Assembly: GCA_945949175.1 (NCBI GenBank)
Contig: CAMFDU010000006.1
Location: forward strand, 1 to 53,073
Length of the DNA: 53,073 nucleotides
Direction of reading: 5' to 3'
Source of the DNA: Gulosibacter massiliensis
Lineage (GTDB): Bacteria; Actinomycetota; Actinomycetes; Actinomycetales; Microbacteriaceae
Position numbers and translations under genes: made by a program. Of the stretch, positions 5,969 through 45,590 are shown piece by piece (position 1 is the first letter of the stretch; the number at the start of each line of letters is the position of its first letter). The notes beneath the pieces are model-generated. The model had not been told where the DNA came from and ran no database searches. It saw nothing but the letters and a program-made list of their open reading frames with translations.

Positions 5969-6892
5969 TTATGCCTCACCTCCGGCGATAAGACGGTCGA
6001 GCCACTCACGGGCATCAACGAACGCGGCGTCGGAATACTGAGCGGTCACGCTAGGGGTGTGTCCGTCGGCACGGCGGTAAGACCCGAGAAACTGCATCCC
6101 CGGGCTGTAGCGCCTTAGACCAAGAAGTGCGTCAGCAACTCGTTCATCTTCAATGTGTCCGTCAATATCGATCACGAATCGGTATCGTCCGAGGGAATCA
6201 CCGATGGGTCGCGATTCGAGTAACGACAAGTTCACTCCGCGCGTAGCGAACTGTTCCAGCATTTCCAGCAAACCTCCCGGACGGTCGTCGGGGAGTTCAA
6301 CGATGACCGTCGTCTTGTCAGTGCCGGTGCGCGGGGCAACGGGGCGACGACGGCCGATCAAAACAAACCTTGTCACAGCGGAAGGATTATCCCCGATTCC
6401 AGCATCGAGGGTCGCAAGATCTACGTGCGAGTCAAAACCAGCTGGAGCAATCGCGGCGTCACCGCGAGCGCCATCAACGATTTCATAGGCAGCGGCGACG
6501 TTGGATGTCGCTGGGAGGTGCTCGTGATGAGGGACGTTCGCTTCAAGCCAGCTACGGCACTGCGCATACGCGACGGGATGTGCGACAACAACTCGGATGT
6601 CAGCGATCGTCGTACCGGGCCGCACTACGACATCGAAGTTCACGGGAACAAGGTATTCGCCCAAAATCTGAAGTCCAGCCGACTGTGCAAGCGCATCCTG
6701 TGCAGCACTGACACCACCCTCGATGGAATTTTCGACGGCAATCATCGCCGCCACTGCTCGACCGTCAATAACCGCCGACAGTGCCTCACCGACATTGCTC
6801 ACGGCGAGCCAGTCGGCACCAGCGGCCTCGGGAACTTGTCCCAAGGCAGTCCACGTGAAGGTGCCGACGGGTCCTAAATAGGCGTATGTCAT
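5969..6892 (-). CDS. pheA: Prephenate dehydratase
   Basis: It converts prephenate to phenylpyruvate in phenylalanine synthesis. The N-terminal PDT domain begins [12 protein letters not shown] and carries the conserved [10 protein letters not shown] (TRF) segment. The C-terminal ACT domain has the ESRP motif ([11 protein letters not shown]), which binds phenylalanine for feedback inhibition. ATG at 6892 follows a clear AAAGGAG. At 307 aa it is a monofunctional actinobacterial PheA without chorismate mutase. It heads a three-gene operon pheA-serS-HAD, with serS only two bases downstream. Cytoplasmic. Confidence 0.96.
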
Positions 6893-8746: not shown

Positions 8747-8888
8747 GGCAACCCTCTCAATCAGTCCTTCTAACGAACCAGAGCAGGGTGAACTCTGCTC
8801 TAACAACTCGCTAACGCACGGTGAAATAGCATTACCGTGTGGTGTGAATACCACGATAGCGTGCCGTTCGTCACCTAACCTGAACTGA
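8747..8888. promoter_or_regulatory. phoU / senX3 divergent control region
   Basis: This region carries repeated GTGAA cores at 8788, 8821 and 8844, spaced 33 and 23 bases, i.e. close to whole helical turns. The first lies inside an inverted repeat GAGCAG-N8-CTGCTC (8781-8800). PHO-box operators of actinobacterial PhoP and RegX3 are direct repeats with a G/GTTCACC-like core (its complement is GGTGAAC, present at 8787). A -10-like TAACCT at 8876-8881 precedes the senX3 ATG by seven bases. RegX3 autoregulation is inferred. Confidence 0.45.
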
Positions 8889-10031
8889 ATGGTAACAATT
8901 GAGATTCTCGCGGTGGTGACGTCAATTGTGGCGGTCACCGCCATCGGTGCTACCTATTTGTTTTTCCGATCGGTGCGGATCCGCTCTGGTAGTTCCCCGT
9001 CCGACGAATCACTTACCGACATTGCGTCAAGCCTCATCAGTGTTCTGGCGACAGCCGGGTTTGTGGTGGATAATTCCCTCGCGGTGCTTCGCGCCACTAA
9101 CAGTGCGATTGCTCTCGGTCTGGTTTCAGGTCGCGTAATCCGCAATAGTGAAATCCGAAAACTCGTCCGCCACGCCAAAGATTCCGATTCGACTCACGAA
9201 GTCGAGTTCGAGCTCACGCTCGGTGCGGGTGGTGACGTTCGTTTCTTGCGCGCTCGCGCGGTTTCCATCGGAAGCGATTTCGTGCTCGTGCTCGTCGAAG
9301 ACACAACCGAAGAACGCGACTTTGAGACAATTCGTCGCGACTTCATCGCGAATGTCACACACGAAATCAAAACCCCCATCGGGGCGATTACGTTGCTCAG
9401 CGAGGCGATGGAGGGTGCGTTAGACGACCCGAAACAAATGCACAAGTTTGCAGCCAGCCTTCGTCGCGAAGCTCGTCGTCTGTCCAACCTGGTAACCGAG
9501 ATCATCCAATTGTCGCGCGTTGAATCCGCTGACATTCTGTCTAACGCCCGTCCCGTCAATGTCGGGGCCGTAATTCGTGAGGCGCTCGAGCGCACGGTTG
9601 TTGTCGCCGAAGCAAAGAACATTGAAATCAATGCCAAGTTCTCCGACGACATTCTCGTGATGGGTGACGGCGAACTGTTGACCGTTGCCGTCAAAAACCT
9701 TCTCGAAAACGCGATTCAGTATTCAGACAAAAACCAACACGTCGGCATCGGCGTCACTGCCCGAAATGGGCACGTTGATATCATCGTCACAGATCAGGGT
9801 GTCGGAATTCCCGCAGACGAACAAGCCCGAGTTTTTGAACGGTTCTATCGCGTTGATGAATCCCGCGACCGCACAACGGGTGGAACAGGTCTCGGTCTCA
9901 GTCTCGTGAAACACATCAGCATGAGCCACCGTGGTGAGGTTACCCTGTTTTCACAACAGGGCGTCGGGTCAACTTTTACCATTCGCCTGCCTAGGCTTGT
10001 GGACACTAGCGAGGAGAACTCCCATGAGTAG
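8889..10031 (+). CDS. senX3: Sensor histidine kinase SenX3
   Basis: Phosphate-responsive membrane kinase. An N-terminal membrane helix (about 4-28) is followed by a PAS-like sensing region (about 45-140), the HisKA phospho-acceptor NVTHEIKTPIGA (His near 158), and the HATPase domain with N box NLLENAIQYSD, G1 DQGVGIPADE, and G2 GGTGLGLSLVKH. ATG at 8889. Its end overlaps regX3 by eight bases, so kinase and regulator are co-translated. At 380 aa it has the SenX3 length. The phoU neighbour supports the Pho role. Confidence 0.93.
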   Translation: MVTIEILAVVTSIVAVTAIGATYLFFRSVRIRSGSSPSDESLTDIASSLISVLATAGFVVDNSLAVLRATNSAIALGLVSGRVIRNSEIRKLVRHAKDSDSTHEVEFELTLGAGGDVRFLRARAVSIGSDFVLVLVEDTTEERDFETIRRDFIANVTHEIKTPIGAITLLSEAMEGALDDPKQMHKFAASLRREARRLSNLVTEIIQLSRVESADILSNARPVNVGAVIREALERTVVVAEAKNIEINAKFSDDILVMGDGELLTVAVKNLLENAIQYSDKNQHVGIGVTARNGHVDIIVTDQGVGIPADEQARVFERFYRVDESRDRTTGGTGLGLSLVKHISMSHRGEVTLFSQQGVGSTFTIRLPRLVDTSEENSHE

Positions 10032-11907: not shown

Positions 11908-13245
11908 ATGGTCGTTCGTCGTAAAGGTAAGTCACGTGAACCGCGACCCTCAATGTTCCGGGCTTTGGCAAATCGTAACTTCCGCATCTGGATTATTGGC
12001 GCGCTACTCGCCAACATCGGCGGGTGGGGGCAACGCGCAGCCCAGGATTGGCTCGTCCTCACCGAACTCACCAATAATGATGCCGTTGCGCTCGGATTCA
12101 GTCTCGCACTGCAGTTCGGCCCAATTCTGATCCTCGGACCGTTCGTCGGACCGTTCATCGACCGATTCCCGGGTCGGACCATTATTTTTTGGTCAGCTGT
12201 TATCGAGACCCTCTTTGGTGTTGTTCTCGGAATTGCGGTTCTGACCGGTATTGCAACACTCGGGCTCGTGTATGCACTCGCTCTCGGGCTCGGAATCACT
12301 CAAGCGATAGAAACGCCTGCCCGACAAATCTTTGTCAACGAACTCGTCAGCAAAAACAACGTTTCCAATGCCATCGGACTCAATTCGATGATGTTCAATA
12401 CCTCGCGACTCATTGGTCCAGCGCTGGCAGGAATCGGTATCTCGTTAGTTGGGACGGGCTGGACACTTCTTTTTGGCGGCCTCAGCCTCGCCTCAGCAGT
12501 TGTGGCCATTTCGATGCTTCGCCGTGGCGAATTGCACTCGGTTCTGAAGGCTCCAAAGGAACGCGGTCAATTCCGAGCTGGGCTTGCCTACATTCAATCG
12601 CGCGCAGACCTCCTCATCGTGCTCACGATGCTTTTCGTCGTCGGTGCTCTCGTGTTCAATTTCGGGATATTTTCAGCCACCATGGCCGTCATCGAATTCG
12701 GGCTCGGGGCGCATGACTACGGCTTCATCATGTCGGCTCTCGCCGTGGGATCGCTTGGTGGGGCTCTTCTCGTGGCCCGAAGCTCCCGTCCTCGACTTTC
12801 GGTGATTACGATGGCTGCCGCGTCGATTGCCGTCGGAGGTCTCGCGGCGGCGCTCGCACCGACCGTGACATCGTTCGTTGTCCTTTTTCCCATCTTGGGT
12901 TTCGGTGCGGTGCTCATGGTTGCAACTATCAACGGTTACATCCAAACCACGACAGACGAAATTTATCGCGGGCGGGTGATGGCAATTTTCTCGACCCTGC
13001 TCATGGGCGCGACACTCATCGGCTCGCCTCTCGCGGGGTGGGTATCGAACGTTTTCGGTCCCCGTTGGGCGATCGGCGTTGCCGCCCTGGGCGGGTTGTT
13101 TGCGACGGTTGTCGCGTTGGTGTGGATGCGAAGTTCTCACAACATTTCGACCATGGACACGGTGCGGTCTGCGTTCACTCGATCGTCGACCGACACGTCC
13201 GACACGGCAACCCAGGTGATCACCATCACCGAACGTGGACCTTAA
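11908..13245 (+). CDS. MFS transporter, EntS/MFS_3-like exporter
   Basis: A 445-residue integral membrane protein with about 12 hydrophobic helices in two halves split by a charged central loop (LHSVLKAPKERGQFR). It starts RALANRNFRIWIIGALLANIGGW, typical of the MFS_3/EntS branch, and carries an FIDRFPGRT-type motif A between helices 2 and 3. Such proteins export siderophores, drugs or other small molecules; no siderophore genes are nearby, so the substrate is open. The hydrophilic C-terminus is Thr/Ser-rich. Start chosen from the -10-like hexamer. Followed by an Lrp-type regulator 57 bases downstream. Confidence 0.85.
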   Translation: MVVRRKGKSREPRPSMFRALANRNFRIWIIGALLANIGGWGQRAAQDWLVLTELTNNDAVALGFSLALQFGPILILGPFVGPFIDRFPGRTIIFWSAVIETLFGVVLGIAVLTGIATLGLVYALALGLGITQAIETPARQIFVNELVSKNNVSNAIGLNSMMFNTSRLIGPALAGIGISLVGTGWTLLFGGLSLASAVVAISMLRRGELHSVLKAPKERGQFRAGLAYIQSRADLLIVLTMLFVVGALVFNFGIFSATMAVIEFGLGAHDYGFIMSALAVGSLGGALLVARSSRPRLSVITMAAASIAVGGLAAALAPTVTSFVVLFPILGFGAVLMVATINGYIQTTTDEIYRGRVMAIFSTLLMGATLIGSPLAGWVSNVFGPRWAIGVAALGGLFATVVALVWMRSSHNISTMDTVRSAFTRSSTDTSDTATQVITITERGP

Positions 13246-44332: not shown

Positions 44333-44686
44333 CTATTTCGTCCGCGACGATCTAGCGGCGTGTATTTCCGCAAGGATCTGTTGGGTTTCACGATGGGCTG
44401 CCATCACCGCTGAATGGGTTTCGTTGTCGCGGCGCTCGGTCTTACGAGACTGAACGTTTTGTCCGACCATGATGATGGGAAGCAAGACAAGTTGCAGGAA
44501 GGTCTGTGCGACCCACGCGACGATGATGACAAGGTCGCCAGTCGCCAGTGCTGCGGGAAGAGAGATGATCGCGAGGACCGCGAAAACAATTGCGGCCCAC
44601 ATCGTTCCGACTACAGAGGTGATTCGCTCACCCCAGCGCTCGAGTGTGGTTCCCGCTAGGTTGTCGTGGCGTCGCTGCTGGTTCAC
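44333..44686 (-). CDS. Small two-helix membrane protein (117 aa), DUF1003/low-affinity iron permease-like
   Basis: Two membrane helices (about 25-47 and 51-73) are followed by IIMVGQNVQSRKTERRDN, which loosely recalls DUF1003 and the low-affinity iron permease family (a helix pair, then QN-x-R and a charged tail), and a cytosolic helix. The likeness is weak. GTG at 44686; TAGACT six bases upstream suggests a leaderless start. That promoter abuts the decayed tRNA-Ala copy at 44707. Confidence 0.6.
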   Translation of the reverse strand: MNQQRRHDNLAGTTLERWGERITSVVGTMWAAIVFAVLAIISLPAALATGDLVIIVAWVAQTFLQLVLLPIIMVGQNVQSRKTERRDNETHSAVMAAHRETQQILAEIHAARSSRTK

Positions 44687-44692
44687 GTGTGA

Positions 44693-44698
44693 AGTCTA
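44693..44698 (-). promoter_or_regulatory. Predicted -10 element, leaderless start of the 117-aa gene
   Basis: TAGACT on the minus strand, six bases from the GTG at 44686, with no Shine-Dalgarno sequence. The -35 region would fall in or near the tRNA-Ala-derived repeat. Confidence 0.45.
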
Positions 44699-44706
44699 TT
44701 CCTCGC

Positions 44707-44724
44707 GGAGACTAGGGGGATCGA
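44707..44724. repeat. Decayed copy of the tRNA-Ala 3' end (attachment-site-like repeat)
   Basis: These 18 bases match the 3' end of tRNA-Ala at 45419-45436 in the same orientation at 17 of 18 positions (GGAGACTAGGGG shared, one mismatch, then ATCGA). The likeness fades beyond. The copy is separated from the intact tRNA by about 710 bases holding a single foreign-looking gene. This is the arrangement left by integration at a tRNA 3' end. Confidence 0.7.
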
Positions 44725-44765
44725 CTTCCCTAGCAAAGACGGGAGTTGTAGCGGGTCTATTTGCA

Positions 44766-44789
44766 TTTTCAGACTATTTTTCAGACTAT
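44766..44789. repeat. Perfect 12-bp tandem repeat upstream of the HEAT-like gene
   Basis: TTTTCAGACTAT occurs twice head to tail (44766-44777, 44778-44789) in an AT-rich stretch 52 bases before the GTG at 44841. It could be a regulator-binding iteron or promoter element. TATATT at 44787-44792 is a candidate -10. Confidence 0.75.
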
Positions 44790-44840
44790 ATTTTCGAGTA
44801 AATCTATCGTTCTGAGATCAAAGCATTGGGGGTTGTTGCC

Positions 44841-45365
44841 GTGGCTGGGGTTAGGGACACTCTTTCTGGTGGGACAAGAACCTCCATTGGCGATGCAGAC
44901 CAGGTTATACAGAAACTACTCAAGGCCCCCTCTGGTCTAGCCGAGGTTTACAAACTCTTTCTTGATGAAGATCCAGTGGTGGCCATGCGATCAAGCTACG
45001 TTGCTATGAGGGTTGCCGAGCAGAAGCCTGAGTCTGTAAAGCCTTTTACAAAAGACCTTTTGAAGAATCTTGAGCTCTACACCCAGCAGGAGGTTCGCTG
45101 GCACATTCCCCAACTACTAGTTCACGCAGAACTAACCAAAGCTCAAAGACACAGAGCCTACGAAGTGATTATGGATTGGGCTGAGACCGATAAAAGCAAG
45201 ATCGTCGGATACTACGGCTTTCAAGCTGCAGCGGACTTTGCGGAAGTCGATGAGGTATTACTTCAAGACTTCATTCCAAGGATTAGAAAAGCCAATAACT
45301 CCGGCGCTAAATCAATTCAGAATCGCTGCAAGAAGATTGCCAAGCAATTGGATATTGCTCTGTAG
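44841..45365 (+). CDS. HEAT-like helical-repeat protein of foreign codon usage (174 aa)
   Basis: An all-helical protein with paired amphipathic helices in the HEAT style (e.g. DEDPVVAMRSSYVAMRVAEQ, and a DNA-alkylation-repair-like rhythm), without a signal or membrane segment. I cannot name a family. GTG at 44841 has GGGGG eight bases before it; TTG at 44826 is an alternative. Seven of ten Arg codons are AGA or AGG, and Leu CTA and Lys AAA are common, unlike neighbours, which use CGN almost only. It lies alone between a decayed and an intact tRNA-Ala 3' end and has its own terminator, so it looks horizontally acquired. Confidence 0.75.
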   Translation: MAGVRDTLSGGTRTSIGDADQVIQKLLKAPSGLAEVYKLFLDEDPVVAMRSSYVAMRVAEQKPESVKPFTKDLLKNLELYTQQEVRWHIPQLLVHAELTKAQRHRAYEVIMDWAETDKSKIVGYYGFQAAADFAEVDEVLLQDFIPRIRKANNSGAKSIQNRCKKIAKQLDIAL

Positions 45366-45374
45366 CGAGGGTTG

Positions 45375-45416
45375 GAAAAAGAAATCTCCCCCCGTTTCCG
45401 GAGGGAGATTTTCTTT
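45375..45416 (+). terminator. Rho-independent terminator of the HEAT-like gene
   Basis: AAAGAAATCTCCC pairs with GGGAGATTTTCTTT (one bulged base) around a short GC-rich loop, starting ten bases after the stop codon. The 3' arm ends in TTTTCTTT. Because the stem is flanked by A-run and T-run it can work in both directions, so it may also end the tRNA-Ile/tRNA-Ala transcript, whose 3' end is at 45418. Confidence 0.85.
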
Positions 45417-45417
45417 G

Positions 45418-45490
45418 TGGAGACTAGGGGAATCGAACCCCTGACCTCCTGCTTGCAAAGCAGGCGCTCTACCAATTGAGCTAAGTCCCC
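45418..45490 (-). tRNA. tRNA-Ala (anticodon UGC)
   Basis: 73 bases: acceptor GGGGACT/AGTCTCC with discriminator A, anticodon stem CCTGC/GCAGG with loop TTTGCAA (anticodon TGC), T arm AGGGG TTCGATT CCCCT. The last 18 bases are repeated at 44707. No CCA encoded. Paired with tRNA-Ile as downstream of gyrA in mycobacteria. Confidence 0.96.
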
Positions 45491-45516
45491 GTTTTTTGCG
45501 GTTTCGGGAAACCGTG

Positions 45517-45590
45517 TGGGGCTACCAGGACTTGAACCTGGGACCTCTTCGTTATCAGCGAAGCGCTCTAACCACCTGAGCTATAGCCCC
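45517..45590 (-). tRNA. tRNA-Ile (anticodon GAU)
   Basis: 74 bases: acceptor GGGGCTA/TAGCCCC with discriminator A, anticodon stem CTTCG/CGAAG with loop CTGATAA (anticodon GAT), T arm CCAGG TTCAAGT CCTGG. Follows gyrA and the DUF3566 gene and precedes tRNA-Ala. Confidence 0.96.

Follow-up and report, generated by a model that had tools for sequence, protein, structure and literature searches.

The stretch of DNA analyzed here (the window; 53,073 bp, contig C6 of the 1.24-Mb, 94% complete genome of Gulosibacter massiliensis) contains a 712-bp unit (44707-45418) located between a displaced and the functional 3' end of a tRNA-Ala gene. The integration target, tRNA-Ala(TGC), is encoded on the minus strand at 45417-45490 (ARAGORN; 45418-45490 by Rfam tRNA), next to tRNA-Ile on the same strand (45516-45590; tRNA scan) and close to a gene that was read as gyrA from its open reading frame. 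The opposite flank is a chromosomal gene for a 117-aa protein (44333-44686, minus strand) that has a DUF1003-like match below the Pfam cut-off and lies beside tRNA-Ala in genomes where the site is empty. As the preliminary description stated, the intact core completes the tRNA, and the interval between the two cores contains a tandem repeat, a single plausible gene and a hairpin resembling a terminator. The left end module (44702-44789, plus strand), aligned with nine other left ends with one single-base gap, consists of the displaced copy of the tRNA-Ala 3' end (the left core; 44707-44724, plus strand), a spacer and, 63 bp from the core, an arm-type tandem repeat, CAGACTATTTTTCAGACTAT (44770-44789, plus strand), whose units are putative integrase arm-binding sites. 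The module is followed by the cargo gene (44841-45365, plus strand) and by the hairpin (45382-45411, minus strand), found by a hairpin/terminator scan just 3' of the tRNA gene; it is terminator-like on the minus strand, that is, in the direction of the tRNA, and none was called on the plus strand by the scan. The right core (45419-45436) is the 3' end of the tRNA-Ala gene itself.

The left core repeats the tRNA-Ala 3' end in the same orientation with one mismatch (17/18), as originally noticed, and is unique: no second match to 44707-44724 was found on either strand of the 53-kb window with up to 4 mismatches. In first-order Markov simulations of a 1.5-kb flank, the best chance match was 15/18, reached once, and 17/18 occurred in 0/2000 runs. 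The displaced copy had also been described as decayed at its outer end, which is hardly so: comparison of the two ends (GCGGAGAC vs GTGGAGAC) shows that the likeness ends within the T-arm, toward the element, which is what a crossover at the core would leave. For the 3' ends of the two tRNA-Ser, tRNA-Leu and tRNA-Ile of the window, there is no displaced copy with at most 4 mismatches in 18, the sole likeness at this threshold being between one of the tRNA-Ser ends and the second tRNA-Ser.

The cargo gene has a lower GC content than the window (47.6% vs 56.1%). The open reading frame as listed spans 44826-45365 with a TTG start; comparison with a relative at the same site in another genome of the genus (G003) suggests that translation starts at the GTG at 44841, giving a protein of 174 aa. 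The two genes share 76% identity, with dN of 0.15 and a dS of about 2.8, which is saturated; the gene is under purifying selection. AlphaFold2 modeling of the protein from a two-sequence alignment yielded an all-helical, HEAT-like structure (mean pLDDT 89), and comparison of this model with PDB produced weak matches (best E = 7e-3), mostly of the HEAT, TOG and ARM type. Searches with the sequence gave a best E of 0.046 in Pfam (below the cut-off), 0.022 in PADLOC and 0.61 in PDB, and no relatives were detected in phages, plasmids or viral_contigs. The protein is most likely a small protein-binding scaffold. The gene is rare: a first survey recovered it in 2/60 genomes, G. massiliensis included, so that its presence in all relatives, the outcome that would have spoken against an integrative unit, was not seen, and a search with a two-sequence profile recovered it in 5/249 genomes of the family, again including the present one.

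We compared the tRNA-Ala site across 15 genomes of the genus, including that of the window. It was readable in 13 (G004 and G012 gave nothing), of which 5 are empty, 7 are occupied and 1 (G010) has another neighborhood. At all five empty sites (G005, G006, G009, G011 and G014), only one core is present and tens of bases separate the tRNA-Ala 3' end from the 117-aa gene, as predicted for relatives lacking the cargo gene. The start of the 117-aa gene at these sites accordingly lies tens of bases from the tRNA 3' end (compare 44686-44710 in the window), and a -10-like box, TAGACT, was seen by eye just upstream of it; cassette insertion may alter transcription of this gene. The occupied sites hold at least five kinds of cargo: the HEAT gene (G000, the window genome, and G003); a gene for a small membrane protein (G013 and G007, where the site is split over two contigs broken inside the insert); a gene for a 118-aa protein (G008); a membrane protein gene together with a helix-turn-helix gene (G001); and a TupA-like ATP-grasp gene (G002, on a contig that stops before the tRNA). 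A second core was recognized at four of the seven occupied sites (G000, G007, G008 and G013), although in G007 and G008 it comprises 12 bases only and fails a threshold of 2 mismatches in 18; the remaining three (G001, G002 and G003, including the relative of the HEAT gene) showed no clear second core or arm. Displaced tRNA 3' ends in the same orientation are present in the G007, G008 and G013 units as well as in units from Rhodoluna, Aquiluna and acMicro-4. In a tree of flanking proteins, built from partial data for some of the genomes, the sister of G. massiliensis (G011) has an empty site, the next branch (G013) carries a different cassette, and G003 is distant.

The ends of these units are shared among cassettes with unrelated cargo, including membrane protein, GNAT and glyoxalase genes. 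Ten left ends were aligned, all chosen for having an arm, a selection that omits the arm-less units (the second acMicro-4 cassette, the G455 and G385 units, and the inserts of G001, G002 and G003); the whole alignment has one one-base gap, there is hardly any variation in the core GGAG[AC]CTAG or in the two repeat units, and the distance from core to arm is 63 bp in nine ends and 62 bp in one. Two sub-types of the left spacer can be distinguished by eye. Left ends of one sub-type (83-89 bp) are 72-89% identical in BLAST comparisons; that of the window is 80-82% identical to those of Rholim, WLDG_c30 and G007 and 72-76% identical to those of acMicro-4 and G013. At the right side, the distance between arm and core is 75 bp in five and 74 bp in one of the six right ends that have an arm, and a BLAST comparison of the right ends (74-80 bp) of five cassettes, which among them carry three kinds of cargo, gave identities of 93.2-98.7%. 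A right arm is absent from the window unit, which has the left arm only, from that of G008 and from both Aquiluna units. Unit lengths extend from 80 bp (G455, which has no gene) and 391 bp (G451, with a frame of ~32 aa) to 1759 bp (Aquiluna BS301), besides a 3428-bp insert in G385.

In the actinobacterial genomes scanned, exact matches to the arm repeat were confined to the tRNA-Ala site. With at most 2 mismatches, CAGACTATnnnTCAGACTAT had 6 matches in 4 of the 15 genomes of the genus, all at the tRNA-Ala site (5 exact and 1 with one mismatch), vs 11 for the reversed pattern, so that only exact matches carry weight. Among 398 genomes of the family, CAGACTATnnnTCAGACTAT followed by A or T had 8 exact matches in 5 genomes from 3 of 85 genera, all 8 at the tRNA-Ala site (one of them on a contig, G007:C3, that stops short of the tRNA yet includes both core and 117-aa gene); the reversed control had 0 among the matches listed. 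A scan of genome_contigs covering 84,980 species yielded 15 loci, 10 of them actinobacterial. These ten come from 8 genomes (Aquiluna, Rhodoluna, acMicro-4, Microbacteriaceae and others), five already encountered in the genus and family scans and three new; every one of the ten loci has a core and 9/10 have tRNA-Ala on the locus. The five non-actinobacterial loci have no core and look like chance matches; L065 and L071 were inspected, and the tRNA scan covered all but L068. The 25 matches in viral_contigs were likewise judged to be chance: none has tRNA-Ala, they are repeats of a few viral sequence families, and a short core-like word occurs 173 bp away in 2/25 and 63 bp away in none. The cassette family is patchy in distribution. 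Within the acMicro-4 genus, the arm (at most 1 mismatch) was found in 1/19 genomes, and in the Rhodoluna genus the tRNA core was matched in 25/40 genomes, 3 of which have another core within 1.5 kb; a wider look at G385, also of this genus, placed a second core 3.4 kb away.

The membrane protein cassette provides a direct comparison of cassette and flank. Between G013 and G007, it is 99.3% identical over 152 bp and 97.4% over 190 bp, against 77.2% for the gyrA-side flank; between G013 and acMicro-4, it is 90.2% identical over 502 bp, against 65.5% over 767 aligned bp of flank. The identity of the cassette is far above that of the flanks, which implies that the cassette moved recently, between species and genera, without them, and it is complete, at 502-503 bp, in two genera. 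Its cargo has no relatives in viral_contigs. A Pfam search with nine other cargo proteins gave no match for five; the matches were glyoxalase (WLDG), TipAS (the second acMicro-4 cassette), GNAT (Rhodoluna) and TupA-like ATP-grasp (G002), with no recombinase among them, and the window cargo has no match over the cut-off.

We propose that the 712-bp unit belongs to a family of small, mostly single-gene cassettes for which the tRNA-Ala 3' end is the specific insertion site and which use an integrase acting in trans, a reading to which we assign a probability of roughly 70%. The notion of a tiny integrative unit that encodes no integrase is supported by the displaced core, the empty sites and the lack of a recombinase among the cargo matches. 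Judging from the sequences at hand, the family appears to span small-genomed Microbacteriaceae (the genus of the window, Rhodoluna, Aquiluna and acMicro-4). The excised circle would carry a core flanked by arms, resembling attP; this circle would be recombined into tRNA-Ala by an arm-binding tyrosine integrase that a phage, plasmid or conjugative element provides in trans, and recombination between the cores would excise the cassette. The arrangement may correspond to a lambda-type attachment site: arms lie 62-63 bp from the core in all ten left ends with an arm and 74-75 bp in all six right ends with one, but the window has the left arm only. Integron cassettes, too, are mostly single genes with a recombination site and are exchangeable; here, in contrast, the platform is a tRNA gene, and a direct-repeat core is combined with separate arm sites. 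Tentatively, and with considerably less confidence, the units could be seen as a distinct integron-like, tRNA-based cassette system, in which a single gene with a core, arm-type sites and a terminator makes up the minimal unit. Such units would circulate among small-genomed actinobacterial genera, sometimes stack at tRNA-Ala, and depend on one non-resident recombinase that arrives transiently. Streamlined aquatic bacteria have few mobile elements, yet their gene content is variable; sub-kilobase units that contain little more than a gene and its recombination ends could let genes move one at a time while adding next to nothing to the genome. The defined ends (core, arm and 62-63 bp spacing) make the cassettes searchable, and the arm motif is a handle for finding the enzyme.

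A helper recombinase was sought in several ways. The PF00589 search, which covered the 15 genomes of the genus and 7 genomes with arm matches (5 of them carriers), detected two matches in the genome of the window, both of the XerC/XerD type by reading, two in each of the carriers G060-G063 and three in G064. Enzymes of the XerC/XerD type are not known to have an arm-binding domain and are therefore not the first choice as a helper. The carrier G007 encodes a full-length phage-type integrase elsewhere (G007:C161), an unlikely helper because neither core nor arm is present on its contig. Like the integrase on G014:C6, it is flanked by other genes, and the stretches fetched around both contain neither a tRNA nor a core or arm. 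Two other non-Xer integrases were rejected as well: that of Rhodoluna G064:C5 is ~80 bp from tRNA-Arg and ~56 kb from tRNA-Ala, and around that of G010 the 20 kb fetched contain neither a tRNA nor a core or arm. The phage-type integrases of G007:C161 (L140) and G014:C6 (L139) are related to each other, each with a small gene upstream, and are located at a site other than tRNA-Ala. No adjacent integrase was noticed in the stretches read, which covered between a few kb and some tens of kb at a small number of sites. Five scans of viral_contigs with the ends or the core found no helper; the tRNA core had 6 matches there, none with arms and, by eye, among viral tRNA genes. None was found in plasmids with the left end as the query or in phages with both ends, where the right end had three records, each matching 25-26% of the query and one being a tRNA-Ala gene of a phage. 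As these searches revealed none, mobilization by an integrase encoded elsewhere is a hypothesis.

The most serious alternative is that internal deletion of a larger island, with loss of its integrase, left the unit behind as a cis-mobilizable element (CIME), in line with the suggestion in the preliminary description that it might be the scar of such an island. CIMEs have attachment sites at both ends and no integration genes and are described in a review as decayed integrative and conjugative or integrative and mobilizable elements (PMC5704250), and integrase-less Dehalococcoides islands have accreted in tandem at the 3' end of the RNA gene ssrA, beside serine-recombinase islands (PMC3146451), both accounts, as far as they were available to us, presenting integrase-less elements that keep attL and attR as products of decay. 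The 712-bp unit is CIME-like in that it retains predicted attL and attR sites without integration or transfer genes, and longer inserts do exist at this tRNA, namely the 1759-bp unit of Aquiluna BS301 and a 3428-bp, three-gene insert without an arm in G385. However, in contrast to CIMEs and the Dehalococcoides islands as described in these sources, no intact partner was found for the present units, and their ends recur with unrelated genes: compact units with nearly identical right ends surround different cargo, and two genera carry a complete copy of the same 502-503 bp cassette. Independent deletions would not be expected to leave common ends around different genes, and we consider deletion from an island unlikely.

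Still less probable, in our assessment, is that the site is a hotspot at which the conserved tRNA and neighboring genes serve as homology for recombination, with no site-specific recombinase involved. Such homologous replacement of islands has been described in aquatic bacteria, as far as the published accounts available to us go (PMC10872708, PMC7771536), and would fit the fact that no recombinase was found for these ends. It does not, however, predict displaced tRNA 3' ends or arms at nearly fixed spacing, nor would it be expected to transfer cassettes without their flanks (90-99% vs 65-77% identity).

That the HEAT gene is an old chromosomal neighbor of tRNA-Ala, lost in most relatives, and that the 18-bp likeness arose by chance is very improbable. 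In its favor, the distant G003 has a relative at this site, for which dS is saturated and a second core is not clear, and the weaker homologues of genus g95 were seen without a displaced tRNA end. Against it, none of the 2000 simulations gave 17/18, the core is single at empty sites, and the slot is filled differently among genomes by other cassettes that share the left end.

Several precedents are partly similar to the cassettes, the nearest kinds being tRNA-targeted cassettes of additive islands and CIMEs. In 'Ca. Actinomarinales', gene cassettes with a direct repeat at tRNAs form a flexible island (PMC7771536); these tRNAs belong to an envelope-sugar island, in another order than the present hosts, and the main text, where the word 'integrase' occurs 0 times, gives, in what was available to us, no end modules, arm repeats or spacing. 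The fGI-2 island of 'Ca. Methylopumilus' contains the terminal 20 nt of a tRNA gene in a varying number of copies and holds 330 bp-42 kb with 1-63 CDS of mostly unknown functions (PMC10872708); it is likewise an additive island with a repeated tRNA 3' end, but differs in its target (tRNA-Lys) and host (Methylophilaceae), and the portion of the account available to us describes no arm-type ends. Tycheposons, which the same paper characterizes as tRNA-associated, 4-200 kb in size and equipped with a tyrosine recombinase, share with the cassettes the link to tRNA, the carriage of cargo and occurrence in streamlined aquatic bacteria; by comparison, the window unit is 712 bp long, units here range from 80 bp to 3.4 kb, and no recombinase was recognized in them. 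The remark in the preliminary description that an element of this kind belongs to no known class was thus too strong, given that tRNA-targeted cassettes and integrase-less islands have been reported (PMC7771536, PMC10872708, PMC3146451); for the tRNA-repeat cassettes, these descriptions, in the parts available to us, name neither recombination sites nor an enzyme. Titles and abstract openings in the literature revealed no report on the cassette ends described here.

The terminator-like hairpin was considered as a mark of the cassette and dropped. At the five empty sites of the window genus, there is no hairpin between the core or tRNA and the 117-aa gene, and the cassettes bring one. In the Rhodoluna genus, a hairpin was seen by eye beside the tRNA at 23 of 25 sites, with or without a cassette (one more site had half a hairpin at the contig end, and one had too little sequence), so that the terminator is not diagnostic there. 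Across the cassettes, a hairpin is usually found beside the tRNA by eye, the second acMicro-4 cassette being an exception without one. This bears also on stacking: a tandem pair was demonstrated in acMicro-4 only, and tandem arrays in L066, L067, L074, L075 and G451 were not upheld, because the hairpin before their left core may belong to a preceding unit or be the host's own terminator. An 80-bp unit of core, hairpin and core without a gene was observed in G455 (L182, cores at 6642 and 6722 of the reverse complement). The three-gene G385 insert (L183, reverse complement) has the core of the same tRNA-Ala at 12260 and a displaced core at 8832, preceded by a hairpin.

The expectation that the HEAT gene would also occur next to other tRNA genes was borne out in part, in two species of another genus, g60. 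In G082, a broken copy of the gene is followed ~0.5 kb on, in sequence resembling that of G211, by a 14/15 match to the tRNA-Ser end of G211; the tRNA-Ser of G082 itself is off the contig. In G211, a hairpin-like stretch comes after the gene, together with a 12/13 copy of the tRNA-Ser(GGA) 3' end, located ~0.9 kb before tRNA-Ser(GGA) itself, with frames read as HEPN and MNT in between; the scan of G211 contained one unrelated match of like score, making 12/13 alone weak. From these sequence matches, the HEAT gene probably lies near displaced tRNA-Ser 3' ends in that genus as well. Of the weaker homologues in genus g95, one is upstream of the tRNA-Arg 5' end and the other is without a tRNA on the locus. 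The HEAT cassette of the window, which is without a right arm, may now be fixed.

Two further observations concern target sites. The loci of G211:C13 (L201) and G082:C5 (L200) are a possible second hotspot at tRNA-Ser(GGA). In the WLDG bin, one contig (L190, G061:C24) carries tRNA-Ala(TGC) at 8868-8941 with a cassette of its own and no tRNA-Ile, the contig ending there, and another contig (L191) carries tRNA-Ile and tRNA-Ala with a cassette; the two tRNA-Ala genes represent either a second copy or a mixed bin.
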